Of a DNA stretch of 64,000 bases, positions 4,259-60,055 are shown piece by piece. Source of the DNA: Cutaneotrichosporon cavernicola (Eukaryota > Basidiomycota > Tremellomycetes > Trichosporonales > Trichosporonaceae). Both the position numbers and the translations under genes were made by a program. The first letter of the stretch is position 1, and each line of letters starts with the position of its first letter. Under the pieces are notes generated by a model. It did not search any database, was not told the DNA's origin, and was given only the letters and a program-made list of their open reading frames with translations. The DNA lies in contig NC_083395.1 in assembly GCF_030864355.1 (NCBI RefSeq), positions 248,001-312,000 of the forward strand, given 5' to 3'.

Positions 4259-5245
4259 ATGGGGATCCGCAAGCCCCGCCGCGACCCCAGGGAGACAGCT
4301 GGCGCATTCGAAGCGTTCTCCTTCCCCACGCTCATCGATTGCATTTTTGGTTACGCGCCATACGAGTCACTCCTGGTTCTCCGTGCCGTCTGCAAGGACT
4401 GGAGGTACCGAGCCGACTGCCTCATCGTGCGGCATGTTGTTGTCAAGTGGATCCCCCCCTTCCTCACCACTTGGACGGCTGCCACACCGTTTGGTCCGAT
4501 TCCACACCGCAATTGGCACAACACTAAGATCAAGGACCATGTTGCCCAGGTCGATCTCATTGGAGATATCTTTCCGGCTTGGCTATACAGAGCACCCTGT
4601 ATTGAAGCCATGCGATTTGGAGGGAAGGGGTTGGGAGTCTGGAGCCAAAAGGTCATCACAACAGTTTATCCACATTCTTCCAGCCGATATTTGGACCCAG
4701 CTGGGAGGCCCAATCGCGGTCACATCGTCATTGTCATCGGGCCAACCACTATCCTTTGCGACTCCTCATCATACTACCACAGCCCCCTCAATCCAGACTC
4801 ACTTACAATCATCGCCCTGAACTTTTTGAGTGGTCCCAGAAGCGGTGAGACTGAGACGCTTGGGTTCATGTCATGGACGGCGGCAAGTTTCGAGTGTCTC
4901 CTCGAAAGTCTGGCAACGCATCTTTCCTCCCAGGACCCCACCCCGGTGACAGTTGTGAACCAAACCACATGGAATTTTACGGTCTGCTACAACCCCTCCC
5001 AGGGCTACCACCACAGGCTTACCGCCAACAGACCGACAAGGCCGACGACAGATGGGGAGAACGGGCCTTGCCGGTTTGCCGATGTCATCCAGGATCGCGT
5101 CCGTCTGTATCTCGCTGAGCTTGACGTACCAGAGGCGCGCCAATGCGAGTTGTTAGCAAAGGTATCCTTCATCTCCCTCGACCAATATCGCGCCAAAGTC
5201 GGTGATGATCGAGTCCAGTTCGAGACAGGGCTACACTTCACTTGA
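4259..5245 (+). CDS. F-box-like family protein, copy 1
   Basis: Single-exon gene for 328 residues, starting at an ATG after a CT-rich leader. The N-terminus (about residues 20-60) has the F-box-like core seen in all copies here: FPTLIDCIFGYAPYESLLVL, then a Cys/Trp-Arg stretch (VCKDWRYRAD) and a basic-hydrophobic strand (LIVRHVVV). The middle is a poorly conserved repeat-free domain. The end carries the family tail FISLDQYRAKVGDDRVQFET. F-box proteins usually recruit substrates to SCF ubiquitin ligases. Here the canonical LP at the start of the box is missing, so Skp1 binding is inference. The other copies lie at 8700, 11322, 28021 (minus) and 57448, with decayed ones nearby. Having no intron sets it apart from its intron-rich neighbours. 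Confidence 0.8.
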   Translation: MGIRKPRRDPRETAGAFEAFSFPTLIDCIFGYAPYESLLVLRAVCKDWRYRADCLIVRHVVVKWIPPFLTTWTAATPFGPIPHRNWHNTKIKDHVAQVDLIGDIFPAWLYRAPCIEAMRFGGKGLGVWSQKVITTVYPHSSSRYLDPAGRPNRGHIVIVIGPTTILCDSSSYYHSPLNPDSLTIIALNFLSGPRSGETETLGFMSWTAASFECLLESLATHLSSQDPTPVTVVNQTTWNFTVCYNPSQGYHHRLTANRPTRPTTDGENGPCRFADVIQDRVRLYLAELDVPEARQCELLAKVSFISLDQYRAKVGDDRVQFETGLHFT

Positions 5246-5585
5246 CGAAGGTGGGGACGAATATGGAGGACCGCGGTCGAAGCGTGAATGGTCATCGAGA
5301 TGTACATGTAGACGCGAGCTCCGTCACATGTGTAGAGGTATTGTAGTTGTTTCATACAAGCTCTGAGCAGGCTTGCCTATCGTGCTATGCTATCGTAGTC
5401 TGAGTATTGTGTTGCTCTGTTATTTGTACCGTACGACTATTAGGTATTGTATGATGTGCTTGTTTGGTGAGAAAAGGGAACCACTGAGAAGACTGGATCG
5501 TTTTTTCCTGTCATGTACGTGTCGTCTGCGTATCGGGTCACGATGCTACACATGGTAGAATACATCCAGTCCTAAACGCGAACCT
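5246..5585. other. Intergenic between convergent genes
   Basis: Holds the 3' ends of the F-box-like gene (plus) and the small hypothetical gene (minus). Slightly T-rich around 5380-5470; no gene or repeat seen. Confidence 0.6.
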
Positions 5586-5846
5586 CTACTTCTCCACTGC
5601 CTGCTTCCTAGCCTTCCACTTCTCCTCCCACTGGGCCCTATAAGCCATTTGAGAGTCTAAGACTTGACGGCGCACCTCGTCGAAAGGGTTTGTCATAGTC
5701 TTGGTCTTATCCTCGACAAGTTTGATGATTGCCTGTGATTGTTGTTCCATGAACTGGTTGTTGATGGCGTCGCGTTTCTCTGGGGATGCTGAGAGAACAT
5801 TTGCGTAGATGAGGTAGGGGTTGGGCTCGGGTTCGGGCTGGGACAT
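5586..5846 (-). CDS. Small hypothetical protein, 86 aa
   Basis: Not recognised. A short frame starting at an ATG in good context (CACC before ATG), with the GC-ending codon preference of the surrounding genes, which favours a real gene. The product is hydrophilic. A Pro/Glu-rich start is followed by predicted amphipathic helix with many Lys, Glu and Gln and two Trp near the end (QWEEKWKARK). There is no signal peptide or membrane segment. It lies alone on the minus strand with 1.3 kb of apparently empty DNA upstream. It could be a small cytosolic or mitochondrial accessory protein, but nothing in the sequence decides this. Confidence 0.55.
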   Translation of the reverse strand: MSQPEPEPNPYLIYANVLSASPEKRDAINNQFMEQQSQAIIKLVEDKTKTMTNPFDEVRRQVLDSQMAYRAQWEEKWKARKQAVEK

Positions 5847-8208: not shown

Positions 8209-8699
8209 GATGCAGAGATTGAGGAGGTGCGAGAGGGTGGAGAGCACGAAGCGAATCGTGAGAGGCGGGGCTGGTTATCAAGACGAGTGGACGAGTGGAC
8301 GAGAGATGAGAGATGAAGAGATGTTCAAAGTTCCAGTGATGACTTCCGGTTATGGTTAACCTGATGTCGGAGGTCACCGATGTGATCGGTCCTCGGTATT
8401 CGTCAAAGTGGGCAGCCCCTCACTCACCCAGCCACCAACTTTGCTTAACGAGCCAGTAGGCCCGTTGGTCCAGATCGAGCAAGTGTTGCTGGTAACAGTT
8501 GGTGCCGTCAGCTGCTCCTCGCCATCAGCTGTGGGTTTGGAGCATCTGGGGAGCAACAAGTCTGCCCAGCTGATAAGACGGACCATCGCCTTGGGTCAAT
8601 GTCACGTGATCCTCAGGTCATCCAAGTCGGCGGTATATCCGGACGACGGCGTATCCCCTCCAAGCTCCATGAATGTCTCTCCCATTCTCATCGCTCACA
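8209..8699. other. Divergent intergenic region
   Basis: Shared upstream region of the Nudix gene (minus) and F-box-like copy 2 (plus). No repeat or RNA gene seen. Confidence 0.5.
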
Positions 8700-9905
8700 A
8701 TGTCCTCCATCGCCTTCGACGAGCTCTCATATCCGGGAATCATTGACCACATCTTCGCTTACGCCTCTCGCGATGCCCTCCTCATCATGCGCCAGGTCTC
8801 GCGCGCGTGGCGAGATCGGGCGGACGCGCATTTCGTAACCCGTGTGACCATCGCCCAGCGCTCCGTCGGAGGCAAGTCGGTGGTCGAGATGCGCGGGCCA
8901 CTCGGCGTAATCCCCAGACAGGACTGGTACGAGACGAGTGTTGGCGATGCGACGCGCGTCCTCGACCTCGGGTGCGGCGGCAGTGCGGCTGCTCTAGCCG
9001 GTCTGTGCCGACTACACAAGCTCGACCTCCTCCGCGACCACGGATACGTGATGCGGAACCGGGCACCGCTCCCCCCCGCCCGCGCATACCTCATGAACCG
9101 CGTCGGCGTCGACACATTCTCGTCGTACTGGGACCACCTCGTCATCTGCCTCCCATACTTCCAGCCCACGTTTGTGCCGCTCGAGAACGTGTTCGGATCC
9201 CACGGGTCCTTCCCCAAGTCACTCGCAGGCGCAGTTCAGAACGTGCGCGGTACGGTCCGCCGGCCCTCTGTCCTCGCCTCGTCCTTGACATTCGGGGACA
9301 ACGGGCGTGCATCGCACCTCGCCGCTCCGCATCCACGGGTCAGTGCCCTCGGTGCGGGGCAATACACCGGCTTCGTGATCCCCCTCTCCCGCCCGTCGAG
9401 GAGCTTCCACGTCCCCGGAGCGTTCACCATCATCCTCGCTCGTCCACCGCCAGACTTTGCTCCACGTCCACAAGGCGTCGCTGCGTCGCGCCGTGCACCG
9501 AGACGCGCCGACGACTACGAGGGCACGTTCCGCAACATGTCACGCCGCATCGCCAAGATCGTCGCGGATGGCGGGCTCGTGCCCATCACCCTCGTTGGGT
9601 TCGATGGATGGTTTACGTTCCTCCCGCACAACCGCGTGTGCTCGTACGACACACTCATGGACGAGATCCGCCGCTCCCTCACCGACTTCCTCAAGAGCGA
9701 CGAGGGTGTCGAGGAGCGAATGTCCGCCATCGAATACCTCTCCCTGGACGAGTACTGTGAGCGCGTCGGAAACGAGCGCTTCGTCCTTGAGACCGAGTTC
9801 GCCGACACTATGGGACCCGGCCCGGAGGACGACGGCGAGGGCCGCACGACCTGGACGCCGTCAGTGGGCGTGGCGGCCCAGGGTCCACAATCGTTGCCCG
9901 CGTAA
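8700..9905 (+). CDS. F-box-like family protein, copy 2
   Basis: Single-exon gene for 401 residues. I chose the ATG at 8700 because the F-box-like core follows within 10 residues, as in other copies; an in-frame ATG at 8673 would add nine residues. The core reads YPGIIDHIFAYASRDALLIM then QVSRAWRDRADAHFVTRV. The end has the clearest family tail, YLSLDEYCERVGNERFVLET, followed by about 35 extra Gly/Pro/Glu-rich residues. The centre contains several Arg/Pro-rich loops. It is very GC-rich, which creates long mirror frames on both strands. The function is probably protein-protein adaptor; ubiquitin-ligase membership is inference from the F-box resemblance. Confidence 0.8.
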   Translation: MSSIAFDELSYPGIIDHIFAYASRDALLIMRQVSRAWRDRADAHFVTRVTIAQRSVGGKSVVEMRGPLGVIPRQDWYETSVGDATRVLDLGCGGSAAALAGLCRLHKLDLLRDHGYVMRNRAPLPPARAYLMNRVGVDTFSSYWDHLVICLPYFQPTFVPLENVFGSHGSFPKSLAGAVQNVRGTVRRPSVLASSLTFGDNGRASHLAAPHPRVSALGAGQYTGFVIPLSRPSRSFHVPGAFTIILARPPPDFAPRPQGVAASRRAPRRADDYEGTFRNMSRRIAKIVADGGLVPITLVGFDGWFTFLPHNRVCSYDTLMDEIRRSLTDFLKSDEGVEERMSAIEYLSLDEYCERVGNERFVLETEFADTMGPGPEDDGEGRTTWTPSVGVAAQGPQSLPA

Positions 9906-10143: not shown

Positions 10144-10680
10144 GAGTTGTAGCACCTCTTGTACTCGATGCGGCGTACGCATCGATCGTCGACTTTCATC
10201 TTCACTCTCGCACGGTATGATTATCTCCTGGGCCTCCGTGCGATCTCCAAGACATGGCTGGAGCGCGTGGACCGCCAGCTCGTGCGCCACATTGCGCTGA
10301 CAATCCGGATTGTGACGGTGGATTGTTGGCAGCAGGAGAGCTTCAGCGCGACCACTGGTGATGGGCACCGGGTCCCATACGAAGGGTGGCAGGACAACAC
10401 TCTCATCGGGCACATCGAGCAGCTCGACCTCCGCGGCGAGAATACCGACAAAAGGCGTCTCGTGGCTGAAGCGCGTCCCGCGCGTCCGCGTCCGTCGCGA
10501 CTGCAGAGTCCGCATGGCGAGTGCGGCGTGGGCGCGCCCGCGGCCGCGGCCGACAAGCTCTTCGCCACGTCGTGCCCACCTCCTTACCACTCGTCTGCTC
10601 TTGACCCAGGGCCCATGATCGCCGTGCCGAGCGTCCACAAACTGTTCCGGGGTCGACAAGAGTACGGACTCCTCCCATAG
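10144..10680 (+). pseudogene. F-box-like copy with a frameshift in the core
   Basis: The family core is split over two frames. One gives ...AYASIVDF and the next, after one extra base near 10192, gives IFTLARYDYLLGLRAISKTW and the basic strand RQLVRHIALTI. A middle segment like that of copy 3 follows (HRVPYEGW...IEQLDLRG). Then similarity fades into Arg/Pro-rich sequence and a stop at 10680, with no family C-terminal tail. The frameshift in the most conserved part plus the missing C-terminal half argue for a dead copy. It sits between two intact copies in the same orientation, consistent with tandem duplication and decay. A sequencing error could explain the shift but not the missing tail. 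Confidence 0.7.
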
Positions 10681-11321
10681 ACGTGTATTGTCGCCTTCCT
10701 CCCTCCGCCTCCTAGCTTTCGCGGGACAGACTCATGGTAAGCTAAGAGACTGCGTACCGTTGCTGACACCAGTACTATGGCTACTTCACTAGGGTGGCTT
10801 AAGTCGTGTTGTTGCTCCCGGTCCACGTCCTCCCCTCCCCGTCACGATCGTGAACCTTGAAGAGTAGGTGCCTCTTCCTTGGGCCAACAGCCCATCCGGC
10901 TTCAGTGCCGTCCCTCGCCAAATCACCGCAACCGAAGGGTTCATGGCAGTCGGGCGCAGGAGCGGGCTCGGTCGAGTTTCTCGGGCTCGATGCATGGCGC
11001 GCGTGTGTCGGTGATGGCGCCTGAGCTGTCGCTTGCATCGTCGTAGCTCTCAACGGCGCGTAGCGGGACGGACATGGGCGACCGCGTGCCTGTCGACCCA
11101 GGATTGCGACTCGACGCACATCGATAAATTCCTTTTTTCTGGATCTCTGCACGCCACCGCCACGTTGATGGACGTATTTCTGTGTGCCTTCCTCCAATCT
11201 TGACATTGTCGACTCATCCAGCCGTCTCTATCTCTTCCTCTCGCCTCTCTTCCTCCTTACCTACATCCCTCCATCCCTCAATCTCCCGTCATCTTCATCG
11301 CACACATCCTGATCTGACACG
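10681..11321. other. Intergenic, upstream of F-box-like copy 3
   Basis: Decayed-looking DNA after the pseudogene, then a CT-rich leader before 11322. No recognisable family tail or other gene found. Confidence 0.5.
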
Positions 11322-12419
11322 ATGCAGCGCGAGTTTCGTGTTCGCCGACCAAAGCGCAGCCCACAATTGTCCTTCGAGCCGACGTGGCGAGTGGCGACCG
11401 ATTACCAGTCCTCTTGTGCCCTCTCGATCGACGCCTCCGCATTCCCCCACCTGATTGACATGATCTTCGACGCCGCGCCATACGAGAGCCTCCTCGCTCT
11501 GCGTACCACTTGTCGCACCTGGCGGGATCGCGCTGATGCGATGACCGTACGACACGTCGTCGTCGTGGAAAACGAGTGTGTCGATGAAGTCGTCTCATAC
11601 CCTGGATGGAAGCTCCAGCGCCGAACATTACCATACACTATCACGACAGGCGAAGGTTACCGCATTCCGCGCACCGAATGGTATTACACACCGCTCGCGG
11701 CCTGCGTTCGGCGGATCGACCTCTGGGGCGGGCCGCAGGTCAGTAGTGGGCCCGAGTGGCTCCACAAGGTCAAGCACGTCCGTGTCCTGTATGACATGAC
11801 ACCATATCGCACAGACTGGCAAACGCCTACGGCCGACGTCCACATTGTGGGCGAGACTTTCGGTCCCAACCACCGGGGGCTAGACCACACGGACGACGAG
11901 ATAGCTGCCTCGGTCATCCACGTGCCCGACCTCGCAGACGCTACACTGAAACGCTGGTCCTGGAGTCGTTCTGGCCCTAAGTGGGATGCCGTGGATGGCG
12001 GTATCCCGCGCGCGCTCACTGTCGTGCTCCGCGACCTACCCAGCCAACCCAACTATCGACACTTCAAGTACATGGGCGTCCTGGTGCGCACACTAGCCAG
12101 AATGCTTGCGGATCAAGTCGATCACCCTTCATCCACCCAGCCCCCTGTCGCCATCACCATAGTCAATCTCAACGCTTGGCGAACCCATCCTCCCGATTCC
12201 CCGCCTTCCAATCCTGGCCACCACTGGTTCACATACGTCATGTGGGCTGCTGGGGCATCGCGCCGCGCCCAGTACCAGAAGAGCGAGCAGTGGCTCCACA
12301 CATTCGAAGAGCGCGTCGAGGCGATTCGGTACCTCTCCCTCCAGGCGTTCCAGGACGAGGTCAGCAAGGAGGTGTTCGAGGCAGTCATAGACCAACACGA
12401 GGACGACATCCCTGAGTAG
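11322..12419 (+). CDS. F-box-like family protein, copy 3
   Basis: Single-exon gene for 365 residues. It has a longer, basic N-terminus than the other copies (about 40 residues), then the core FPHLIDMIFDAAPYESLLAL and TTCRTWRDRADAMTVRHVVV. A mid-segment YRIPRTEWYYTPLAACVRRI recurs in the pseudogene just upstream, so these two are the closest pair in the cluster. The C-terminal tail is the most divergent of the intact copies (YLSLQAFQDEVSKEVFE) and ends in an acidic stretch. Orientation and spacing match copies 1 and 2, giving a same-strand run over 8 kb broken only by the Nudix gene and a small gene. The adaptor role is inferred from the F-box-like core only. Confidence 0.8.
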   Translation: MQREFRVRRPKRSPQLSFEPTWRVATDYQSSCALSIDASAFPHLIDMIFDAAPYESLLALRTTCRTWRDRADAMTVRHVVVVENECVDEVVSYPGWKLQRRTLPYTITTGEGYRIPRTEWYYTPLAACVRRIDLWGGPQVSSGPEWLHKVKHVRVLYDMTPYRTDWQTPTADVHIVGETFGPNHRGLDHTDDEIAASVIHVPDLADATLKRWSWSRSGPKWDAVDGGIPRALTVVLRDLPSQPNYRHFKYMGVLVRTLARMLADQVDHPSSTQPPVAITIVNLNAWRTHPPDSPPSNPGHHWFTYVMWAAGASRRAQYQKSEQWLHTFEERVEAIRYLSLQAFQDEVSKEVFEAVIDQHEDDIPE

Positions 12420-18839: not shown

Positions 18840-20891
18840 CTATCCAAAGAAGCTCTTGAACTTGCTCTTAACCTTGGACTCGATACCCTGGCGTACCGGA
18901 GCACTGGCATGCCACTGGTCCTGCAGACTTGACTGTAGTTTACCCTGCTGACTAGTCTGTTGTCCGCTCATCGGCCTCGGCGGAGGTGGCGCATGCTCGG
19001 CGCCGATCGGCTCAAACTCGAACCCCATACCCTGGCACCACTGCCCAACATGGCCATAAACTCCGCTCAGCCGATACCCCGCGGGGACGCGCGCCTCACC
19101 CGGCCCGCCGCCCTGTGACCCAAACCAAGGAGACGTCCGCTGCGTCGTGACGAACTGGATACCGTCCATCCACGCTCCATGGCGCACATTGATGCCCATA
19201 ACAGTCTCCCCTGGGTGCAGAGGCCAGTCCTTAGGCGACCCCCCACGCTTGCCGAATAACGCCCCGTCGAGCTCGATCCCGTCGAGTGCCGCGCCGCAGT
19301 ACACCCGAATATGCCGCAGGTTGGGCGGCACGCCAATCGCCTGCGGACTCCCACTTTCGCTGCCAAACGGCGGGGAACGCAGTACGCCGTGCCGTGACGG
19401 CCAGATATTCTTGAGCCCAAAGTCGTCGAGCTTTCCCCCGTCACTGGCGAGGACAGTGATGCGGTCAAAGTGGTTCAGCTCGTTCCGCGGAATGCTGTAC
19501 GTGTTACGACCTTTGCCGAAGAGGTCGATGAATTGGTCCGCCGTCTCTTTGCCGGGTTGGCGGTATTCGATGGCGAGCAACTCGCTGGATGGAGTGTAGA
19601 TCTGCAGCCCGTCGGTTGCCGCCGTTACGAGGATCGGGCCCTTGGTTTGAGGCAGCGGCTTGTCCGTCGGGAAGGCGAAAGACGGATGGGAGATGAAACG
19701 CAGGGTGTCGAGACGATGCCATTTGCATTCGTTCTTGTCGTCGGCTTGCAGCGCGATGAAGCTGTCGGCGAGGCGCGTGTAGTCGCGCAGCATGACGCCG
19801 TAGGACTGGAGTCAGCTATGGTGCCAGAAGAAGGGTGAGATCTTGGCATCCCTCAAGATGGACCCATTCGGAGGTCTCGACGAGGTGGAAGACTTCGAGA
19901 GCGAGGACGAGACGGGTGGGGAGACTGGAGAGGTCTAGGTACTCACCTGGTGTGGACACGTCAGCATGTGGCCGACCTCGTGCATCATCGCGCCGATGCC
20001 GACTTGTGCCGCCATCCCATAGTCCTTGCCCTCCGCGTCGATGCCGCACGAGCGCGTGTCGACGGCTTGGCGGTTCAGGAAGGCGGGTACTACCTGGTCG
20101 AGCGTCTCAGGCCACGAGAAGCACGTGTGACTACCGAAGATGGCGAGCGGGAACGGGCCTCCTGAGCCGCCGAGTGCAGCATGTCCCACGATCAGGCCGT
20201 TACGATCGTGGGTCGCGTCCATGATAAGCACGGCAGCCTGGAGGTCCTTGCGCTCGCGGAACTCGGGCGCGTTCTCCACTGCCTCCCGCATCATGCCGTA
20301 CAGGTCCTGCTTGCCGCTCCCGCTACCCTGCTGCGCGCGGTTCTCATCTCGAATGTCGGCCAAGGAGTGGTTGCTACGCACGAGGGTGACTTTGGGGATC
20401 TGGGCCTGTACACCGGCCTGGGAGACAGTATCCACTCCCCACTCAGTCTCGAACTGGAACGTGCGCGCGCCGAAGCCGGCGCGCATCATCTGCTCGGCGG
20501 TATACGCTTGCCAAAGATACGCGGCCATACGGAGGCGCCGCGCCGCCATGTCAAAGTTGGAGGGACCCACGTCGTCGAAGCATACTGGCGAGTTGCGGGC
20601 CGCGACAATGATGAGGCTAATCGGCCGCGTCTGCAGCGGCTGATAGAAGACGGGATGTATGGTTGAGGTTGATCCGCACTCGATATTCACCCCGTTCTCG
20701 CCCGGCGTGAGCGGCGCCAGAGCCTTGAAGCGGCCGTTTGGGTGGACGGGGAACCGGACGGGCGGGTGGGGCACGGCCGTTACCGTCACGGACGAGCCGT
20801 ACGGTGGTGGAGGGCTGATCTGCCCGATGATGAGGGCGAGGTGGGAGTGCACCGGCGCCGTTGGCGGGGGTGTTTGGATGGTGATAGACAT
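18840..20891 (-). CDS. Putative zinc metallopeptidase with jacalin-like domain
   Basis: Two exons (19947-20891 and 18840-19805), 636 residues, with an unusually long 141-nt intron between them. Exon 1 ends exactly after the zinc motif HEVGHMLTCPHQ (304-315), which fits HExxHxxxxxH; exon 2 resumes SYGVMLRDYTR, the expected sequence after it. The C-terminal half (about 440-600) is a jacalin-like beta-prism: ITVLASDGGK, then GINVRHGAWMDGIQF and LSGVYGHVGQWCQGMGFEF. The same two-domain plan is known in the fungal Metallopep family (yeast YIL108W), whose substrate is unknown. There is no signal peptide, so cytosolic action is likely. In metzincins the eighth motif position is Gly; here it is Thr. 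Confidence 0.85.
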
Positions 20892-23471: not shown

Positions 23472-24688
23472 ATGGGCTTCGGTGACTTTGCTGCATCCAT
23501 GCAGAAGGTCGCACTCGACCAGGGCGATAAGCCCAAGGAAGGCAGTACAGACCGCGGCCTCACTTCCAAGCTCATGGACGCTGGGATGAAGTATGCGTCG
23601 GGCGGCAAGCCCCCCAGCCAGCCCCAGTACGGTCAGCAGAACCAGCAGGGCGGGCATGGCGGATACAACCAGGGCTATGGCGGCGGAGCAGCCGACTCGT
23701 ACTACAACCCCGGCGGGCAGGGTGAGCTTACTTTCCACTGAAGAGCTGACACCAGGCTCGCATGGCGGATACGGAGGCTCGTACGGACAGCAGGGTGGGT
23801 TGCGCGTTTGCGCGTGAGGAGGAGCTGATCGCAGGTTACGGAGGCGGATACGGCACGCAGCAGGGCAATGGGCAGCACGGTGGCCAGCAGCAGGGCCAGT
23901 ATGGTGGCCAGCAGCAGGGCCAGTATGGGAACCAGCACGGCGGGTACCAGAACCAGAACCAGGGCCACTCGGGCTCGTCAGGCGGCCTCGCTTCGGGCCT
24001 CGGCGCCCTCGCGTCCATGGCGGGCGGCTCGAAGCCTCAAAACCAGCAGCAACAGCAGCAGGGTCACTCGTCGGGCGGCCTCGCGTCGGGCCTCAGCGCT
24101 CTCGCGTCCATGGCGGGCGGCTCGAAGCCTCAAAACCAGCAGCAACAGCAGCAGGGTCACTCGTCGGGCGGCGGCCTCGGCGCCCTCGCGGCCATGGCTG
24201 GTCCCGCGCTCGCCGCGTACTCTGGCAAGCCCTCGAAGCCGTCGGGCGGACACAGCAGCGGCGGCAGCCTCCTCTCCATGGCGGCCGGTATGGCGTCGCA
24301 CGGCTCGGGTCAGGGCGGCGGCAGCGCGGGCAAGGTCGGCGGTCTGATGGCGCTTGCTGGTGTCATGGGTGGCGGTGGCAAGCAAAGCGGCGGAAGCGGC
24401 GGTGCACTCGGTACACTCGGTGCGCTCGCTGGTGTTGCTGGTGCGATGAGCGGCAAGCGCGAGATTGGAGAGGAGGACAAGCACGGCCAGAACAACCAGC
24501 AGAGCCAGTACGGCCAGTCGTACGGCTCTCAGGGCGACCACCGCGTGCCCTCCCCCCACCAGAACGAGCAGGGCTACAACCAGGGCTACGGCCACAACGA
24601 CGGCCGTACTCCCACTCCACCGCACGGCGAGGCGGCCAACTACTACAACCAGCCGGGCTCGTACCAGGCCCAGGGCTATGGTCGTTAA
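23472..24688 (+). CDS. Gly/Gln-rich low-complexity protein
   Basis: Three exons (23472-23721, 23756-23794, 23835-24688), 380 residues; the middle exon is 39 nt. The start is a folded-looking segment (MGFGDFAASMQKVALDQG) with Lys/Asp. The rest is Gly/Gln/Tyr/Ser-rich: QGQYGG units, two near-identical ~31-residue units around GGLASGLxALASMAGG and six-Gln runs, then Ala/Gly stretches that could form glycine-zipper-like helices (LGALAGVAGAMSG), ending YNQPGSYQAQGYGR. The composition is prion-like and could drive condensate or membrane association. The next gene downstream has the same style, so the two are probably paralogues or co-functional. No enzyme motif; the function is unknown. Confidence 0.8.
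23973..24156 (+). repeat. Two ~93-bp in-frame tandem units
   Basis: Nearly identical coding repeats encode GLASGLxALASMAGGSKPQN followed by six Gln. Their near-identity at DNA level suggests recent unequal exchange. Confidence 0.8.
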
Positions 24689-25167
24689 AGCGCGTCGGGT
24701 TTGATTGGATGAAGCGACAGGGACGAGAAGCATGTACATGAGATCACGACCGGGCTTTGGGTTCTTGTCATTATAGAGCAGAGTAGAGTAAAGGAATGGA
24801 TACACGATGAGGGCAAGGAACTCGATGTAGTGCGATGTAGTGTTGGTCGTGGTGCCAAGCGTCCTACTGCCAAGTGGGTAGGTAGGAGGTGGACAGAGAT
24901 GACGCGCGTCCTAGGAACAGGTGGGGTGGGATACGTCATAGACCCTGCCGAGGTTGGGCTTTGTTCGCCATCACACGGTCTTTCGGTGTCGAGGACTGCG
25001 GATAACCGATCAAGGAAAGGGGTTGCACAGCCTCACTCAGATCTCCCAACTGCCACGCGAGCTCGAGACGAGATCTGCATTCTCACTGCACCCACCGCGT
25101 CACCCCACTTCTATCTCACCTTCCTTCCATCCCTCCTTCAACCACTCCTTCACTCCAAACCATCACA
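24689..25167. other. Intergenic, upstream of the second Gly/Gln-rich gene
   Basis: Ends in a TTCCTTC/CACTCC pyrimidine-rich leader directly before ATG 25168. No gene seen. Confidence 0.5.
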
Positions 25168-26034
25168 ATGTCGTTCAACCAGGGCGGTAACTACGGCTCG
25201 GGATACACTCCCCCCGGCGCGCCTGGCTCGTACCAGCACCCCGGCTTCGGTAACCACCCCGCTCCTCAGGGTGGGCAGCCACAGCCACAAGGCGAGGCTG
25301 CAAGCTATTACAGCCAGGCGCCGCAGCCGCAGCAGCATGGCGGCGAGCAGTACGGCGGTCAGCAGCAGCAGCACCAGCAGCAGAACTACCAGCAGCACCA
25401 GCAGCAGCAGAACTACCAGCAGCACCAGCAGCGTGAGTTCGAGGAAGGCGACCTCCACTCGACTTGCACGCCCCGCTGCAACCTCGACCCAGCTCCGGGA
25501 TATGGGCTGTAGCTGACGGCAGCGTACAACCCTCCTGCGCAGCACGCGCCCCCTCCCCAGCAGTCCAATTCGTACGGCTCGGGCGTGGCCGGGATGGGCC
25601 TCGCGGGTATCGCTGGCGCCGCGGTCGGCGCCATTGGCGGATACGCCTCCGGCCACTCGAGCGGTGGCCATTCGAGCGGTGGCCTCGGCAGTCTCGCTAG
25701 TTCGGTGATGGGCGGCGGTAGCCACTCCCCCGGCAAGGACCACAAGGACAAGGACAAGAAGGACAAGGACAAGAAGGACAAGGACAAGGACAAGGACAAG
25801 GACAAGAAGGACAAGGACAAGGACAAGAAGGACAAGGACAAGGACAAGAAGGACAAGGACAAGGACAAGGACCACAAGGACAAGGACAAGAAGGACAAGG
25901 ACAAGAAGGACAAGAAGGACAAGAAGAAGTATGGGTCGCACGGGTCGGGGTCGGGCTCGGACTCTGAGGGCAGCGGCGGCAAGAAAAAGTACAAGCAGAA
26001 GAAGCGCAGTGGCTCTGGCTCGGACTCGGACTAG
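25168..26034 (+). CDS. Gly/Gln-rich, glycine-zipper protein with Lys/Asp tract
   Basis: Two exons (25168-25432, 25523-26034) around a 90-nt intron; 258 residues. The N-terminus is Gly/Tyr/Pro/Gln-rich with long (QQ)n and NYQQHQ repeats. The centre has a clear glycine-zipper helix, MGLAGIAGAAVGAIGGYASG, able to insert in or oligomerise at membranes. Next is a 60-residue tract made almost only of DKDK/KKDKD units (bases about 25736-25925), then GSGSDSEGSGGKKKYKQKKR. The charged tract resembles hydrophilins that stay soluble under desiccation. It shares start style, Gly/Gln bias and orientation with the gene at 23472. Function unknown; a stress-related or surface-linked role is a guess. Confidence 0.78.
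25736..25925 (+). repeat. (GACAAG)n coding repeat
   Basis: Degenerate hexanucleotide GACAAG/AAGGAC repeat encoding alternating Lys and Asp; strongly purine-biased on the plus strand. Confidence 0.9.
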
Positions 26035-26351
26035 ACACCACTCGGGAGCTGCTGGGAAGGGAATGAGGTGTGTAGATAGAGAGGCATTGTAGATATTAGA
26101 GGTCGTAGCATCGTCGTGACCATGCACGTTCGTCACCATGTGCTACCTTGGGCTAGATGTGAACTGGCAAGCTCGGAGGTATGATCTAGCTCTCGTGCTT
26201 TCATGACCGGCTTCACTACTGGCGGCACGGCAACGGCCATACCCGGCGACCAAGACCGACACTGCTCACCACATAACCCCAACCATTCCTCATCTCCTCA
26301 ACTCCCACTTCCTCCCTCCCTCCATAGCATTCTCTCCCGTTCAACGCCGCC
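26035..26351. other. Intergenic, upstream of the epoxide hydrolase
   Basis: Ends in a CT-rich leader (CTTCCTCCCTCCCTCC) before ATG 26352. Nothing else seen. Confidence 0.5.
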
Positions 26352-28020: not shown

Positions 28021-29172
28021 TCAGAACAAAAACGCGAGCTCGAACTTCTCCTCCCCGACACGCGCCTTGAAGTCATCAAGCGTCTCGAACTTGATGTAAT
28101 CTAGCCTCTCGTCCGCGGTATCGTTCCCCACCCAATCATTTTCCGGAACGCTCTCCATGCCGATGCGCATCGACCTGCGGAGGTATTGGAGCCACACAGT
28201 GCGCTCCCTCTCGTCCCTGGGGAGATGCCTGGCCACCGAAAGACCGACCTCTAGGTGTTTCATCCACGTGCCGCTGCCCGCGCCAGGTAGTCGCCAAGAG
28301 AACGAGTTGACGAGAGTTATCCGCCTTGGGCTACACATGACGGGAAGTGCTTTTCCGATCGCGGTTACGACGAGCGACGCCTGTTCGTACGGGACTGGTG
28401 AGGGGGGGCCAAGTGAGCGAATTCGCCATCCAGAAGGTGGCCCCGTACTACGGACACCCCTATACGGAGGTTGAAAGAGTATGACGAGTTCAATGTCGTC
28501 CCGCCAGGAGCTCTGACTGGCGACGGGGAATTGAAGGGCGCTGGGTGGTGCCAGGCGGAGCGACACCAAGACCATTCCGTTCTTGTGGATCTGCGGATTT
28601 TGCAGCTGCAGACCCAAGTAGGGTGAAGGAGGGGCGTGGGCGCAGTACATTTCGCAAAGGGGAAGTAAGTCGAGCTTGAAGCTACTTTGATAGTCGCGTA
28701 CCACACGGATATTGGGGAACTTGGCGATGAGGGCTATCCACTCTTCCAGGAGGTCGTCCGGTGAAATGTCCAGGATGCGAGTGTTGGTTAGTCCATCCCA
28801 GTGTTGAGGGGGGAGGCGGGGCGGTACCGCACCTTGCACGTGGAGGGACCGTGTTGTATCCCAACTGTGGGCAGCGATGTTGCGTTCCGGATGACTAACG
28901 GGTCCATAGGTCAGATGGGACCTCAAGAGCGACAGGTGGTCGACCAGAAGCGCGTCAGCGTGAGCCCGCCATTCGACGCAGACTCTACGCAAGACAAGGA
29001 GGGACGACCTCGGCGCAAAGTGAAAGATCCTGTCGATGATATCGGGGTAGGCGAGGTGGTCAACCTGGACAATCTTGGAGGCCCCACAGCAGTCTGACTG
29101 GAAGCCAACATCCGCATCGGGATGGACTTGCATTGGGTACATGTGCGCTTCCGAGCGGGTCTTGACGGACAT
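28021..29172 (-). CDS. F-box-like family protein, copy 4
   Basis: Single-exon gene for 383 residues, the only intact copy on the minus strand. Start taken at the ATG 29172; a second ATG ten codons later is equally possible. Core: YPDIIDRIFHFAPRSSLLVL then RVCVEWRAHADALLVDHLSL. The middle holds two hydrophobic strands common to other copies (VLDISPDD-like and VTAIGKALPVM). The tail is YIKFETLDDFKARVGEEKFE, a variant of the family signature. It stands apart from the clusters at both ends of the window and shares a 283-bp divergent upstream region with a 3'-5' exonuclease gene. F-box adaptor activity is inferred. Confidence 0.78.
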   Translation of the reverse strand: MSVKTRSEAHMYPMQVHPDADVGFQSDCCGASKIVQVDHLAYPDIIDRIFHFAPRSSLLVLRRVCVEWRAHADALLVDHLSLLRSHLTYGPVSHPERNIAAHSWDTTRSLHVQGAVPPRLPPQHWDGLTNTRILDISPDDLLEEWIALIAKFPNIRVVRDYQSSFKLDLLPLCEMYCAHAPPSPYLGLQLQNPQIHKNGMVLVSLRLAPPSALQFPVASQSSWRDDIELVILFQPPYRGVRSTGPPSGWRIRSLGPPSPVPYEQASLVVTAIGKALPVMCSPRRITLVNSFSWRLPGAGSGTWMKHLEVGLSVARHLPRDERERTVWLQYLRRSMRIGMESVPENDWVGNDTADERLDYIKFETLDDFKARVGEEKFELAFLF

Positions 29173-40529: not shown

Positions 40530-42441
40530 TTAGGACCTTGCGCCCAGCCGTATTGGATAAAGCTTAGCCTTATGTTCACTGAAAACCCCAGAATGGGGAG
40601 CAGGATGGGAGGGGTTCAGGCGTTCGTGCCATGTGAAGCGGAGCTCCTCCACTCGGCCCAAGTAGCTAGCCACATCAGCACTCACCGGCGGGTCCAGGAA
40701 CGCGCGCACCGCCGCCACGAACGGCGTGATGCTCCACCGCTTCGCAAGCATCTCGAGGATGCGAATCGCACGCCGCAAGTCCGCCTTAAGACGATTTGTC
40801 CTGCTGTCAGCGCATTCAAGAGGGGACTCACGCAGCAGGGCCCGGCTCCTCGCGCTTAGCGGCGTACACGAGAATGAGCGCAGCGAAGAATACCATATCG
40901 ACATATCCCGGCCACATCACGCTCTCGCCCTTCCCAGGCAAGCCACAGCATTCGACCGCCCTGCGTTGGCGACCGTCGAGCTCGTGCGCCAGTGTGCGCA
41001 GAATCACTCGGGCGCTGGCCACACATGTCTCTAGTGCGTACGTGTGCTGCAATGCGGTTGGGGCGAGACTGAGTGCGGGGCGAGAGAGTGCGATCACCTG
41101 CTGTCGGTACAGGCAGGTGAAGAGGGTTTTGTAGGGCGAGCGAACGTCGTCTGCGTCCGGTGTCTGGTGTTAGCGCTGCCGGTGAAGGACTGACAGCCTC
41201 GCCGTCGGCGTCAAAGCCAATGTCGTTCCACCAGCGCTCGAGCTCAGTGCGCAGCTGCAGTGTCTCCTGGGCCTGGATCGAGCGATACCGCAGGCTCTTG
41301 TTGAATGCCTCCATCGCCTGGCCCATCAGACGTGAGATGCCGACGAGCGAGAACGCCGGAAGTAGACGCTGCCGCTGTGGCTCAGCGGGCTGGTGGCTCT
41401 CGACACTCTGTCCCTGAACCTGTGGTGAAGTCGATAGGGGTTCATGCGGTGACTCGCTCACGCGCCGCCGTTTTCGCCGGTCCTCGGGGCTGGCTTGATC
41501 ATGACGTGCTGGATGGCCTTCGGGGCTGGGGGGACAGAGGGGATGCTGCTCGCTACCACCAGGAACACACGTGTCGACGTCCGTGTCGTGCAGCATGATC
41601 GGAACCCCAAACTCGGCGGTGAGCAGCCGGTCAAGGGTGTACAGCGACCAGAAGACGCGCTTGCGCATCTCACGCTCAGCGGTGGACGTAAAGGTACCCG
41701 GATACCGGTCTGGGCAGCGGTGGAGGCCGGCCTCAAAGGCAAGTTCTGGGCTTAGTTCAATCAGGTGATGACGTACTGGTCACGGTGCCGCTGAGGTGCA
41801 TGGCAGGGCGGAGGCGGCGGGAGAGATACATGAAGAGCATAAGGGCCACGAGGGCTTGGATCGCGAACAAGTCATTGATGCTACCACCCTGGCACGCACT
41901 GAGGACCAGGTGGCCCAGCATTGTTGCTTGGCTCGTGGATGCTAAGCGAGGGAAACCGGCGCGCGCGGCGGTCCCATCATCGCCGATCGCGACAATGGCT
42001 TTGAAGATCGCCGTGAGTGCCAAACTCTCAGCGGGGGAGAGGAGGAAAGCCGGGCCGTCAGGCCTGGTCGTGGCAGCGGTGAGGGCGGCCTCGTAGGCGG
42101 AGAGGACGTACGCGCCGTCGAGGAAGGGGAAGAGAGGGTGCCATGTCTCGAAGTAGGATTCTAAGGCAGCGCGGAGACCGGCAGCCAGGAGGTCAGAGGC
42201 ACGGAGACTGAAGTGCTCGTACACCACACTCTCATCTGGCTCATCGGCGGCGCGACTCGTAAACGCCTGCTCGATGCCCGGTGCTGCGGCGTCGGCCTGC
42301 GCCCGTACCGTGTCGGCGAGGTAAACGCCAGACGCGGACCCCGCGAAGCGAGGGAAACCGCTCTTCGGTCAGCTTGTCTGCAGGGACACACACTGGAGAA
42401 GCGTAGAAGCGGCCGCGTTCGTATGATTGGTTTGATTCCAT
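40530..42441 (-). CDS. Fungal transcription-factor-domain protein without a zinc cluster
   Basis: Five exons (42394-42441, 41777-42362, 41195-41745, 40832-41163, 40530-40800), 595 residues, four introns of 31 nt each. The protein contains the fungal_trans middle homology region: LESYFETWHPLFPFLDG, a helix-rich middle, then TSTAEREMRKRVFWSLYTLD and the C-terminal YKTLFTCLYRQQVIALSRPA. No Zn2Cys6 cluster is found in the first exon or upstream, where only 194 bp separate it from the divergent kinase gene. Such cluster-less regulators can act by dimerising or through another DNA-binding partner, or a short upstream exon was missed. The last exon's end is the least certain. Confidence 0.8.
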
Positions 42442-43952: not shown

Positions 43953-45059
43953 ATGTCCATCATCCCCGCCATATCCTCCCTTATCACATCGCACTCCTTG
44001 GCCACAATGTCGCGCACAGCAAACAAGGCTTTCTCCTCACAGAACGAGGCCTTCATCAAACAGGGGTGGTACCCCTCACCGACCACTGGCGGCGCGGTCG
44101 ACCTCTCCTCCTTGGTCTCGGCCGCCAAGCACCTCGTAACGTCCTACGACGAGGCCGCGACCGAACAGCTCCTGTCCGTCGTGACATGCTCTCCCAACCC
44201 AAACAAACCCACCACCCTCACAGTGACGGCCGAGACCTCGTCTGCCGCCGCGGAACGTCTACACGCCGAAGGGGCACCGCGTATCGCCGTCCTCAATTTC
44301 GCGAGTGCGCGCAACCCTGGAGGAGGGTACATGAACGGCGCGACGGCGCAGGAGGAGGATATCTGCCGCAGCTCGGCGCTCTACACGACCCTACTCAAAG
44401 CACCCGACTTTTATGCCGCCCACCAGCACCTGGATGGCCGCTACACCCACCGTATGATTTACTCGCCGTCCGTGCCCATGTTCCGCACCTCGAAGGGAGA
44501 CCTCCTCCCATTCCCTTACACGGTCGATTTTATCACTTCCGCCGCACCGAATTATGGAGCGCTCGAGAATAAACACCCACATCGCCTGCACCATGTTCCC
44601 CGACTGCTGAGAGAGCGCGCGGCTCGTATCTTGGCTCTGTGTGCTTACCATGGCGCACAGACGCTCGTGCTCGGCGCTTGGGGGTGCGGCGTGTTTCGTA
44701 ACTCGCCAGCCGAGGTTGCCAAGGTATTCCACGACCTCCTCAAGCCTGGTGGCGCGTTTCATGGACGCTTCAACGACGTCGTGTTCGCAATCTACGACAG
44801 GTCGCGCACCCAGGAGGTCATGGGTCCTTTCATGGCCGAGTTCACAGGTACCACACCTCCTCACACGCCCAGACGCAGTCACGCAAGTCCAAAGCGCTCA
44901 GCAGACAACGGTTCTGCGCGCCGGTCCTCGAGAGACATTGGCCCGCCGGGCTCCGGTTCCGACCGCAGAGAAGCCAGACCCAGCCATGACAAGCCCGCGC
45001 CTGCAGACGGACAGGCTAGAATCACGTCGTTCTTCCAGCCCAAGCGGCGTGACGGGTAG
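43953..45059 (+). CDS. Microbial-type poly(ADP-ribose) glycohydrolase with C-terminal PIP box
   Basis: Single exon, 368 residues (a second in-frame ATG lies 18 codons in). The macrodomain-like core carries the PARG signature GGG-x(7)-QEE: NPGGGYMNGATAQEEDICRS with Gly123-125 and Glu134-135. Further core strands are MIYSPSVPMFR and LVLGAWGCGVFRN. This is the DUF2263 (bacterial-type) PARG family, which removes poly(ADP-ribose) chains. After residue ~300 comes a disordered Ser/Arg/Pro linker, ending in QARITSFF (354-361), a full Q-x-x-I-x-x-F-F PCNA-binding box followed by basic residues. That suggests recruitment to replication or repair sites. The enzyme family is firm; PCNA binding is predicted. 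Confidence 0.9.
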   Translation: MSIIPAISSLITSHSLATMSRTANKAFSSQNEAFIKQGWYPSPTTGGAVDLSSLVSAAKHLVTSYDEAATEQLLSVVTCSPNPNKPTTLTVTAETSSAAAERLHAEGAPRIAVLNFASARNPGGGYMNGATAQEEDICRSSALYTTLLKAPDFYAAHQHLDGRYTHRMIYSPSVPMFRTSKGDLLPFPYTVDFITSAAPNYGALENKHPHRLHHVPRLLRERAARILALCAYHGAQTLVLGAWGCGVFRNSPAEVAKVFHDLLKPGGAFHGRFNDVVFAIYDRSRTQEVMGPFMAEFTGTTPPHTPRRSHASPKRSADNGSARRSSRDIGPPGSGSDRREARPSHDKPAPADGQARITSFFQPKRRDG

Positions 45060-53054: not shown

Positions 53055-53241
53055 ACGACTGTAGATGATGCAAGGACTGTAGATGATGCAAGGTCTGGCA
53101 CAATCGAGACGAGACGAGATCACATCAACATGCATATCAAAGTTCAGACTGTCCATTCCAGCGAGGCACCATCCGCAGCATTGTCCATGGCTGATGTCAC
53201 GTCTATGACGCAGATTTCAGCTCACACTTGTGTCTCTCGAC

Positions 53242-55543: not shown

Positions 55544-55752
55544 CCAACTTGTAGTGGTCTGATGTGGCAGAAGTATTGTATGAAAAGAGCTGTGGGACAT
55601 GGAAACGAGGTACGGAGGTTGACAAGACCGATCCATGCACAATGTACGTGAAGGCTTTACTAGAGACCTCACGACTACGGGCTATGTTGAGAACATCGAT
55701 CACGACGGACAAAGCCGGATTCCTACCCCCGCTCACCTACACAGCCTCCACC

Positions 55753-55914
55753 CTACCGCATCACATACGAGCGAGCCGTCTCGAGCTTGAACACCTGACT
55801 GCCGACCTGGCACTCGTACTCCTCAAGAGTGAGGCTCCTGACGATGTCGGGGAAACGGCGTGAACGGCGCCTGGTTTCAACGTAGTCAACGAAGAGCTTG
55901 GGTGCATAGTTTGA
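55753..55914 (-). pseudogene. F-box-like family fragment, C-terminal end (a)
   Basis: About 50 codons in one frame, ending SLTLEEYECQVGSQVFKLET and a stop. This is the family tail seen in the intact copies. No F-box-like core is found within reach upstream on this strand. Confidence 0.65.
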
Positions 55915-56030
55915 ACATGTTCAACGCCAAGTGAGGGCGCAGGAGTCACATTCCTCACTCCATGTGAATGCATGGTACAGTACATCAACATTACAGATGT
56001 CGTACAATCGCCAGGCAGACGTAGGCGATG

Positions 56031-56165
56031 TTAGAGGACAAACGTCGGGTCGGTCTCGAGTGAGAACCGCTCGGATCCGAGCTCGGCCTCATATTCGTCG
56101 AGGGAGAGGAAACGGATCACGTCGTCCACCACTGGTCCGTGGACGTCTCGATGCGTGGGTGAGTC
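56031..56165 (-). pseudogene. F-box-like family fragment, C-terminal end (b)
   Basis: The frame ends VIRFLSLDEYEAELGSERFSLET and a stop, a near-perfect family tail close to that of copy 2. Upstream sequence loses similarity, so only the last ~40 codons remain. Confidence 0.7.
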
Positions 56166-56439
56166 TAGTCTGCAGTAGGTTGAAGAAGAGTGGGAGGAAT
56201 GGCAACAACGAGTTTGCGTTGCGTTGTCGTAAAGGAAGGATTCGCTCGACACCACAATGTCAACCCGTATCACGTGACATGACAAGTCATCTTCCCTACC
56301 AGCACTTTCAAATCACAACTGTCCATTCAACATTCACCGACGCCTTTAGCCATTCAACAGTCCTCTCCGCTGCACCGCTCAACAACCTTTGCGCTGTCAA
56401 GCAAGCATTGCCCGAACCCCATCTGTCACACGATTGCGG

Positions 56440-56587
56440 CAGTGTTGAATCACGCGCGCGGCGTTCAGGGGACCGGAGTTTCCAGTCTGGTTGGCAGTCG
56501 TATTGGCTCACCCTCGAGGAATCCAAGGCCGTGGTCGGTCCGAAGCAATTCTACTTCAAGACGGACGAGCATTACGTCCTGCGGTAG
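56440..56587 (+). pseudogene. F-box-like family fragment, C-terminal end (c)
   Basis: On the opposite strand to (a) and (b), the frame ends YWLTLEESKAVVGPKQFYFKT then DEHYVLR and a stop. The YFKTDE...LR end most resembles copy 5 (RFYTDESFFLK), 2 kb downstream. Confidence 0.65.
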
Positions 56588-57447
56588 TGTATCGGGCGCA
56601 GCAGGACCTCGCAAGTTGGTCACCTCGAGCGATTATGGCTACTCGTACAGCCTCGGCCCTGTCCCTGACGAAGAATGCCTACAGCGACAGTAGTGTCTGG
56701 GTCAACAATGGTCGGATGACAAGTTCGTGATGTTCACTACTCGGAAGTATGCATCCGGGTGCGGAAGAATCTGAAATCCCTCACCCTTTCTACAATGCGA
56801 CTATCGAGACTCTCCGACCAGAGACCGTCGTCATCTTCGCGCAGCGTATCAAGCTGTCCATCTTCAACGAGCTTGGCGTACCTACCTCTTACCTCCCGCT
56901 TCCTCAACCAATCTTTAACTCTTACACAGGGCTGTTTTCCGACAAGGCCACAACCTCCTCACACCAGTCCCGGAAGAAGACCACCCTCGTCATTGCTGAA
57001 TACATTGATTTGACTATTCTATACAAGCAAGATCGATCATCTTCAATACTTAACCTCGCTCCAAGGAAATTATAATAATTAAATTAACCTGCCGCTTTTA
57101 AACGAACCCATCCATACCATAATATAAGAGGCTAACAAGTATATTTTATTTATTAAATTGATCACTTCAAGCCCCGTGTAAGGATCCATATATCCTGGAT
57201 TGCGTGTGCATCCCCATGTTTATGTCATCCATTCCACGTCACAGTCTCACAGCTGACAGGAAGCCATTTCGGGCCCTGGCTACTTCGAATCGAGGTCGGC
57301 AGACCATTTAACTGTTGCGCCACTTACGCCACGTTTTGCGACCGCGCCACCGCGCCACCGGCCCCGCCTTCCTCTCTCCCTAATATAATGCTGCCATCAC
57401 TTGTCCCATTCACTTCCACTTCTACTTTCATTTCCATCCTACTCACC
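56588..57447. other. Intergenic with an AT-rich patch
   Basis: Unrecognised decayed-looking sequence to about 57060, then a sharply AT-rich patch (about 57060-57175) unlike the GC-rich surroundings, then GC-rich DNA with a tRNA-like fragment near 57265-57330. No gene supported. Confidence 0.55.
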
Positions 57448-58602
57448 ATGGACATCGGATACATCCTTTCAGAAGCGTCCCAGCCCGCTCTCCCCAAAGC
57501 GACAGACTCTCACGCCCCCGTGATTGATCATCTTCGCTATCCCCACATCTTCGAACAGATCTTCCAGCAGGCCGAGTACCCCGCACTCGTAAGCTTCAGG
57601 GCGACGTGCCACAGCCTCCGCGAGCGGGTTGACAGGCGCCTCTCGGCTCATCTCTTGGTCCTCGCAGGGGGGATGCACATCTTGACAATGGGCCGACATG
57701 CCGTCCCATCCCTTGCCATCAATCGCCCAGGCCACGAGTGGTCTAATCCCAAGAGGGCGAGGTTCCTGCTATCCCGGACGCAGGTGGTTGATTACGTCGG
57801 CTCCTTCAACTTTCCTACTCACCTGGAGAGCGTTATGGACGATTTGAGGCCCACCTTTGCACGTGTATGGGGGGAGACAGAGGGCAATCGATTGCCGTCC
57901 TCGATTGACACACTCGTTGTCTTTGGCTGGAGCTCTCCGTGCCGTGCCACCGGAAGGCACTATCGGTGGCATCACAGAGAAATGCCCTTCCTGTCCCGCA
58001 GATGGCGCAACCCTATCTTGTCCACCGTGAACCTCGACCCCACCACCATGGTCCTCAACCTCTCCATCAGCGGCAAGAGGAGCATGAATACGGTCAGCGA
58101 ACTCATGCCCAGCCTAGGTAGTGAAGGTGTCAGGGACATTGTTATTATCATCCACTGCTCGGAGGGTCGGGCTTTCTACCAGGAAGATTCAGAGGGAGAT
58201 CAAGAGGAACCTCCAGGATCAGATATTGTAGCCGTCAAGGATCTGGAAACGATCCTCCGCTTTATCAAGTCCAGGTGGCTCACTTCCCCCACCACCCCGC
58301 GCATCATCATCGTCGACTTGCATCTTATCTCTCCCGACGAGCCAAAGAGGGGTTTCCTCAGGAGGGCACTCCGCGACTACGCTCGGTTGCGAGCAGGAGA
58401 CTGCCCCGAACCGAGTGACATTTGGGACGGCCCCGAACCGAGTGACATTGAGTTCTACAACCAGTCCCCTGGCAACGTGGTTTCCAAAGCGTTCTCGCTA
58501 CCAGACGATTCCATCACGCTCATGTCGAAACAGGAGTACAGTGCGCAGATTGGCCAGGAGCGGTTCCGCTTCTACACTGACGAGTCGTTCTTCCTCAAGT
58601 AG
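57448..58602 (+). CDS. F-box-like family protein, copy 5
   Basis: Single-exon gene for 384 residues. Start taken at ATG 57448 after CTCACC; an upstream in-frame ATG would add 20 hydrophobic/Thr residues. Core: YPHIFEQIFQQAEYPALVSF then RATCHSLRERVDRRLSAHLL. The Trp of the usual C..W..R is replaced by Leu, so this is a divergent core. The tail is LMSKQEYSAQIGQERFRFYT. Near 58404-58450 a 27-bp unit is tandemly duplicated (PEPSDIWDG / PEPSDIEF). An acidic loop (about 245-265) interrupts the middle. It flanks the fragment graveyard on one side and a decayed copy on the other. Confidence 0.77.
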   Translation: MDIGYILSEASQPALPKATDSHAPVIDHLRYPHIFEQIFQQAEYPALVSFRATCHSLRERVDRRLSAHLLVLAGGMHILTMGRHAVPSLAINRPGHEWSNPKRARFLLSRTQVVDYVGSFNFPTHLESVMDDLRPTFARVWGETEGNRLPSSIDTLVVFGWSSPCRATGRHYRWHHREMPFLSRRWRNPILSTVNLDPTTMVLNLSISGKRSMNTVSELMPSLGSEGVRDIVIIIHCSEGRAFYQEDSEGDQEEPPGSDIVAVKDLETILRFIKSRWLTSPTTPRIIIVDLHLISPDEPKRGFLRRALRDYARLRAGDCPEPSDIWDGPEPSDIEFYNQSPGNVVSKAFSLPDDSITLMSKQEYSAQIGQERFRFYTDESFFLK

Positions 58603-58845
58603 GCGAGGTGGGTCCACTTCTAGGGCGATTGCTGACGGTCAGATACATGATGTTGCGAGGCGTTGACCTCCCATCTTCCGCGTGTCGCATTCCCATCATT
58701 ACCCGGACCTATCTACCCCCGGCTCCTTCTGAATCAATCGCTTTCACCAGCATATGGATGCGCTCCCCAACCCCTATTCCAGGCTTCATTCTATTCCCAA
58801 CTTGTATTCATTGAGCACTACCGCGTGAGGGTCATATACTGTACC

Positions 58846-60055
58846 ATGCCCATCTTATCAGACACCACACTCTCTCACTCTCGCGGTGTCGCCTCCCGCT
58901 CGGATCTCGCCCGTCCCCATGATGACGAGGACGCCTCGCAAGGCGCATCACCTTCGATCCCGACCAACGATGCCACCGCCGCCATCCACCTCCTGGCGGA
59001 CACCGCGATCAAGGACATCCAACCGCTACTCCTGTAACTCTTGATTCCCTAGCCTACCCTCACATTATGAACCGCATCATCGATTTCGCTTCAAAGCCCG
59101 CCCTCCTCTCGCTTCGTGCCGTTAGCACAAAGTATCGGAATCGCGTTCATGACATCCTTGCTCGCCACCTGATTATGCGAGCGGCAGTGACCCCGAGTTC
59201 TTCACCATGCATGGCGACCGACACCCTGGTCTCACCGTGTTCGGACTGGTCACCGACGGCCCCTTGGGTGACGCGTTCAGGTGGAACAAGGCTCTCTGGG
59301 AGGACCAGCCTCCGCGCTGGCAGCCTCGCGACCAAGATATCCTCGAACATGTGCCGGTCATGGACTATACCGGGCCCAGCGGGGAGGACTGCATGATCGA
59401 TCACCGGAGCTCTGAAGACGAGCAGAGTACTGGAGGCAGCGATGCCACTGCCGACGACAAGCAGGCCACAGGAGGTAGCGATGCCTCTGGCGACGACGAC
59501 CTGAGTACCGGAAGCATCGACGCCATCAGCGACGGCGAGCAGACTGGAGGCAACGACGGGACTGAGGGCGAGCAGACTGGAGGTAACAACGTCTCTGGTG
59601 ACGAGCAGACTGTAGGAGGCCGGGAGATTGCTGGCGACGATTTGGAGGACGACTACTATCCATTCGCTGTCGGCTTCGATCTCCCAGAACCGACGACGGC
59701 CGAGTGGCTCAAGACGGTCTGTCTGTCGTTCAAGAGGCTTTCAGTCGCACTCGTGTGGCATGGCGTCGACCTCGACCTCTTTTTCAGCTGGCTTCCTGTT
59801 CCGACTCTGGTTGTGTTTGCGTGGCTGTCGCAGGAGAGATGGGAGCCTCAAAACCCATCGCTGCTCGCCAAGTCCAACGGCGGCGGCACGGCGGGCCACA
59901 TTATCCCAGCGAAGAGCGGCTTCGGGAGACGGACAAGCCTTTCCACCATTGTTGTGAACATTCCCATCGGATACACTGGTCGCCTAGCGCTAGGAGCGAG
60001 GTGTAAAGTAGACTTGTATGTTGTAATGAGGTATGGAGAGAATGCAGAAACGTAA
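58846..60055 (+). pseudogene. Decayed F-box-like copy with an acidic repeat insert
   Basis: Three frames are needed to follow the family. The first starts at ATG 58846 and stops at 59037. The core SLAYPHIMNRIIDFASKPAL and SLRAVSTKYRNRVHDILARH lies in the next frame. From about 59185 the remainder (HPGLTVFGLVTDGPLGDAFR...) lies in a third. A degenerate ~14-residue repeat rich in Gly/Ser/Thr/Asp (TGGSDATADD type) sits at 59406-59640. No family C-terminal tail is found. No splice signals of normal size fix the shifts, so I call it a pseudogene; the open 282-codon part from 59207 could still be expressed. Confidence 0.62.
59406..59640 (+). repeat. Degenerate ~40-bp coding repeat
   Basis: About five diverged units encoding QxTGGxDxxxxD; acidic and Gly/Thr-rich, inserted in the decayed F-box-like copy. 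Confidence 0.7.

Follow-up and report, generated by a model that had tools for sequence, protein, structure and literature searches.

The question raised by the window, as we call the whole stretch of 64,000 nucleotides analysed here, is what kind of protein is encoded by five reading frames that resemble one another at both ends. The original prediction described them as intact copies of an F-box-like family with a common N-terminal core, and this holds: all five frames are open (Table 1), and eight core residues (P23, I29, F30, A33, L38, R42, R49 and D53) are identical in every one of them, with 22-30% identity to the 4259 copy across the aligned window copies. The same prediction placed a variable middle between two conserved ends. 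The tail is indeed more conserved than the middle, but the middle also contains conserved blocks, found at residues 80-86, 98-100 and 231-234 of the 4259 copy. In each window copy a Pfam F-box or F-box-like model matches the N-terminus below threshold, with lowest E-values per protein of 0.00076 to 0.11; outside the N-terminus of these five proteins Pfam finds nothing convincing.

Table 1. Family genes, decayed copies and fragments in the window (positions count from its first nucleotide).
Feature	Position	Strand	Details
Intact family gene, 328 aa, single frame	4259..5245	+	F-box helices residues 23-56; tail ~5162-5233
Intact family gene, 410 aa (401 aa from in-frame ATG 8700)	8673..9905	+	tail ~9729-9794
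Decayed copy, F-box piece and part of middle	10168..10680	+	closest matches are the adjoining 11322 and 4259 copies
Weak tail-like piece	10854..11021	+	profile E 1.1; 60% over 15 aa, E 0.067
Intact family gene, 365 aa	11322..12419	+	degenerate tail ~12324-12380
Intact family gene, 383 aa	28021..29172	-	tail ~28036-28095
Isolated tail fragment	55753..55920	-	tail profile E 0.0028
Isolated tail fragment, similarity up to ~54-60 aa	56031..56312	-	tail profile E 8.5e-9
Isolated tail fragment	~56504..56587	+	48% over 27 aa to neighbouring member L069, E 0.002 (52-protein set)
Intact family gene, 404 aa (384 aa from in-frame ATG 57448)	57388..58602	+	tail ~58513-58587
F-box piece, decayed or interrupted copy	58983..59354	+	E 4.9e-12

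The nature of the core was clarified by comparing profiles. With hhalign, the family F-box profile matches the canonical F-boxes of the same genome (E 3.6e-5, probability 71.5), and the two best PDB sequence matches of the core are both FBXO22 (E 0.027-0.028). We therefore read the core as an F-box, and both AlphaFold models discussed below contain the three-helix F-box fold. Judged from its sequence, it is a diverged F-box, far enough from the norm for the window copies to miss the Pfam cut-offs, which five family places do exceed. Canonical F-boxes of this genome carry LP.. and an invariant W, while the family has Y/F-P-H-I and a variable position instead of the W. The F-box alignment (A6, 27 of 52 segments) and the tail alignment (A7, 24 of 49) were picked by hand with deviant segments mostly omitted, so that "invariant" positions in them flatter the family and figures for all 52 members give the full picture. 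The genome contains a single Skp1 match (G000:C4:3070504-3070647, minus strand). Groups of family members flank it on either side (C4:3019381-3059077 and C4:3091866-3093297), a location that may be due to chance or possibly reflects linkage of adaptor and receptors.

The tail has the consensus F-x-S/T-x-x-E-Y-x-x-x-V-G-x-x-x-F-x-L-E-T/M. A profile was built from the tails of 47 members that lie outside the window and was used to search its 1769 six-frame pieces; E-values from this search, from the 52-protein comparison and from the F-box check of tail-found places below are small-set values. Four of the five window tails were recovered (E 2.1e-6, 9.1e-6, 3.7e-5 and 1.1e-4), and for these copies the predicted common tail is confirmed. 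The 11322 tail, in contrast, lies within the shuffle noise of the window search (E 0.18, 8.8 bits), where a 21-aa piece of no relation to the family (40619-40681, E 0.068) ranks above it; cross-validation gives it 8.8 bits, and the shuffled sequences there reach 7.4 at most. The six good matches, four tails and two fragments, reach 14.4-31.7 bits, ten shuffles peak at 5.9-9.2 bits, and the best hit of the reversed-sequence control has E 1.3. The similarity is beyond chance, with a held-out profile that beats both kinds of control. In ten-fold cross-validation, 45 of the 52 members have a tail score that beats the 99% level of 1040 shuffled sequences, and 41 beat their maximum. In 44 of 52 members the tail follows the F-box within one frame, and in 43 of the 45 that score it ends no more than 60 residues before the C-terminus. 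Among these 45 is L042, in which the tail match lies upstream of an F-box because the frame is a fusion. The tail is also present in the relatives P0001, P0002 and P0003; a profile search found none in P0004.

The tail was further expected to end three isolated fragments in the window. The profile finds two of them, and the third, absent from its list at E <= 5, is recognised through its match to L069. No tail-profile match is listed downstream of the F-box piece at 58983, and the open reading frame at 59207-60055 has no family similarity at E <= 0.5. Downstream of the 10168 fragment, the weak tail-like piece may be what remains of its tail; the similarity is suggestive only. Other window genes include a frame with a microbial-type PARG catalytic domain (43953-45059, plus strand; PF10021, E 1.2e-40) and a putative metallopeptidase (18840-20891, minus strand; PF12044) split over two frames, the second of which also has a jacalin-like lectin domain (PF01419). 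At 23762-26139 there are glycine/glutamine-rich or low-complexity frames, and the opposite strand has long frames as well.

Genome-wide, the core occurs at 101 places on all eight contigs of the 20.2 Mb assembly, a number obtained by merging by hand seven protein-query genome searches at E <= 0.01 with one count per frame; it is a lower bound, in which weak F-box-only matches may include some non-family genes. Open frames of 280 aa or longer (median 397) hold 92 of these places, and 83 have another one within 30 kb (random mean 25.8, maximum 46 in 2000 draws). The predicted expansion is thus evident in this genome, and its extent in the lineage was sampled by six relatives only. Two of these are from Cutaneotrichosporon: P0005 (hypothetical protein CcaverHIS002_0202340) is this genome's own protein, 100% identical over 355 aa to G000:C2:594403-595467, and P0006 is the orthologue in strain HIS471; the remainder are P0001-P0004. 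Comparisons among members used a subset of 52, the remaining places standing outside them. This set omits the short frames L010, L025, L034 and L056, as well as L074, L078, L079, L080, L083, L085 and L086, where a simple core pattern found no frame.

Genome queries with the tail alone revealed seven extra places overlooked by the F-box queries (search E 2.3e-4 to 0.032). In five of them a family F-box lies in the same frame (E 9.5e-7 to 8e-16), so that the tail usually predicts the F-box and the two ends are genuinely linked. The F-box match in L097 is doubtful (0.22), and no F-box was detected in the frame of L092. This 315-aa frame (G000:C3:1969000-1970300, minus strand), beside member L019, has a good tail and, by eye, the internal T-L-V block of the family; it may be a truncated gene or a decoy that lacks the F-box. 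L093 and L098 have their F-box and tail in separate frames, which marks them as broken or spliced copies. About 18 kb past the end of the window, the 726-aa frame L042 (G000:C3:328985-332353, minus strand) holds two units in tandem, with an F-box at 90-130, a tail at 354-376, a second F-box at 385-433 and a weak tail at 694-706. By its layout it is a natural fusion of tandem copies, so that the stretch from F-box to tail acts as a complete unit. The N-termini of L026 and L048 show short in-frame duplications of the F-box start, as from replication slippage (PLPAESFPHLIDD nearly twice in L026).

How such a family arose can be judged from the distances between its members. The original prediction had proposed spread by retroposition or homogenisation by gene conversion, partly because the copies seemed to lack introns where all neighbours have several. 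Members are found on every contig, and 44 of the 52 run uninterrupted from core to tail, counted on genomic reading frames rather than transcripts. The contrast with the neighbours was overstated, however, since four unrelated ones (GDPD, PARG-like, GNAT and 3'-5' exonuclease) each hold a largely complete Pfam domain in one frame as well. Moreover, the closest pair among the 52 members is 44% identical and the median best-match identity is 31%, which leaves no recent copies or homogenised pairs in this set, and the best match lies within 100 kb for 22 of the 52 (expected 4.4, maximum 13 in 2000 draws). Dispersed near-identical copies, as expected of recent retrogenes, are not what is seen in a family with 83 of 101 places clustered. 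Recent retroposition or gene conversion finds no support in these figures, and we hold either route to be very unlikely, while a founder may have arisen by ancient retroposition. Chance similarity in a GC-rich genome is a still weaker proposition. Five shuffled windows of the same composition have longest frames of 210-244 aa, so frame length alone means little, but the held-out profile with its reversed and shuffled controls, together with the F-boxes upstream of five of the seven tails found on their own, makes this explanation practically negligible. With best matches local and identities low, the sequences most likely record local duplication and dispersal, followed by strong divergence and some decay. 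Divergence may also be fast: the HIS471 orthologue is identical at 291 of 351 aligned residues, although the genomes of strain HIS471 and C. cavernicola share >93% nucleotide identity according to PMC10568926, and this one gene suggests rapid evolution.

The original prediction also suggested that the tail may be an undescribed domain. Pfam gives isolated weak matches only, PDB sequences give none at E <= 10, and hhalign finds no match between the tail profile and the canonical F-boxes of this genome (probability 0.4), so that no convincing named domain was matched. To place the tail in a fold, two AlphaFold models were made from 11-sequence alignments; one alignment was common to both, and they are therefore not independent. 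The model of the window 4259 copy has a mean pLDDT of 67 and a pTM of 0.64, that of P0001 70 and 0.69, and parts of the middle fall below a pLDDT of 50. In both, the three F-box helices (23-56) are followed by a run of strands, a helix at ~200-222 and a strand at 229/230-233, and the C-terminal part consists of helices at ~273-299, a strand at 302-305 and helices at 307-314 and 316-327. Block pLDDT values from residue 301 are 90, 85 and 67 for the 4259 copy and 90, 89 and 76 for P0001. The tail thus looks less like a free domain than like the last part, a closing strand and two helices, of a single C-terminal domain; we read it so because of these modelled elements and because it also marks the boundary between the two fused units of L042. 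Packing of core and tail against each other is inferred. Structural matches are weak. Among the matches listed, those extending from the F-box up to the tail's beginning include three ubiquitin-ligase or PRC1.1 entries, whose chains we take to be of the SKP2, FBXL3 and KDM2B type, and over the same span a Toll-like receptor and an unrelated phosphodiesterase, also weak. In 35 members, Pfam detected no leucine-rich repeat (LRR) and no WD40 or Kelch match after the F-box at E <= 0.1, and no second domain beyond isolated weak matches.

Taken together, sequences and models make it probable that this expanded F-box family consists of SCF substrate receptors, with a variable middle for targets and the tail as a domain cap. 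The N-terminal three-helix F-box would dock on Skp1, and the rest of the protein would form one divergent strand-rich domain, perhaps with the layout of a short leucine-rich-repeat solenoid; targets would be selected by the variable surface of this domain. The tail, as last strand and two closing helices, would be kept because it holds the domain together. Local duplication and dispersal will have multiplied the copies, which diverged strongly and in some cases decayed. The conservation of the tail could also be explained by a docking motif common to all members, binding one partner (an SCF component, a regulator or one another) while only the middle varies. Its higher conservation than the middle, its position near the C-terminus in nearly all scoring members and the residues kept in the single orthologous pair (tail 33/35, F-box 45/55, middle 213/261) would fit such a motif. 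However, in both models the tail opens with a strand of good confidence and continues in helices, the residues conserved in it (F, Y, V, F and L) are mostly hydrophobic, as would suit a packed cap, and one pair is too little for ranking rates; we consider a docking motif rather unlikely. Alternatively, the F-box could be vestigial or independent of Skp1 and the family could serve a function other than ubiquitin ligation, as the departure from the genome's canonical pattern, the scores of the window cores under the Pfam cut-offs and the one tail-bearing frame without an F-box might indicate. With the conserved P retained in 51 and the R in 50 of the 52 members, the segment is under constraint, and its profile does match canonical F-boxes; a lost or redirected F-box seems to us decidedly improbable.

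The receptor reading brings to mind several known systems. F-box/LRR proteins of the SKP2, FBXL3 and KDM2B type also have an N-terminal F-box followed by a strand-rich C-terminal domain and align weakly with the family models over most of their length. The family differs from them in the absence of a Pfam LRR match and in irregular strand spacing, and its strand-helix-helix tail lies mostly beyond the aligned part. FBXO22 resembles the family in its F-box alone. Large repertoires of F-box proteins are reported in plants. In Caenorhabditis, large F-box expansions arose via tandem duplication, as described in PMC8665587. These are likewise large, species-specific tandem expansions with fast divergence; the family here has no second Pfam domain (35 members, isolated weak matches aside), a single frame and what appears to be a tail of its own. 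Cryptococcus neoformans, also a basidiomycete yeast with F-box proteins, has at least 20 of all kinds, one with LRRs, in the account given in PMC9781138, compared with 101 places of one family here. We found no description of the family in the open-access literature, though absence there is not proof: passages in PMC8893723, PMC10406608 and PMC12062965 do not describe it, and the term F-box is absent from the main text of PMC10568926 on C. cavernicola strains.

Expanded F-box families are a known kind; what appears to be new is this branch, the number of its copies in a yeast, and the tail. C. cavernicola strains have 7,738-7,796 genes by the figures in PMC10568926, so that the family, at 92 to 101 places, would make up 1.2-1.3% of this yeast's genes. 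Since it finds members overlooked by F-box queries, the tail profile is a practical handle for annotation. Elsewhere, large F-box repertoires can track changing targets. About 100 diverged receptors served by a single Skp1, alike at their first and last parts but with variable recognition domains in between, could conceivably amount to a recognition system inside the cell, directed for instance at foreign or selfish proteins and comparable to the large nematode and plant repertoires, with a new capping module as its hallmark; we regard this as unlikely. Being small and haploid and having one Skp1 match, this yeast would be a simple system for asking what the targets are.
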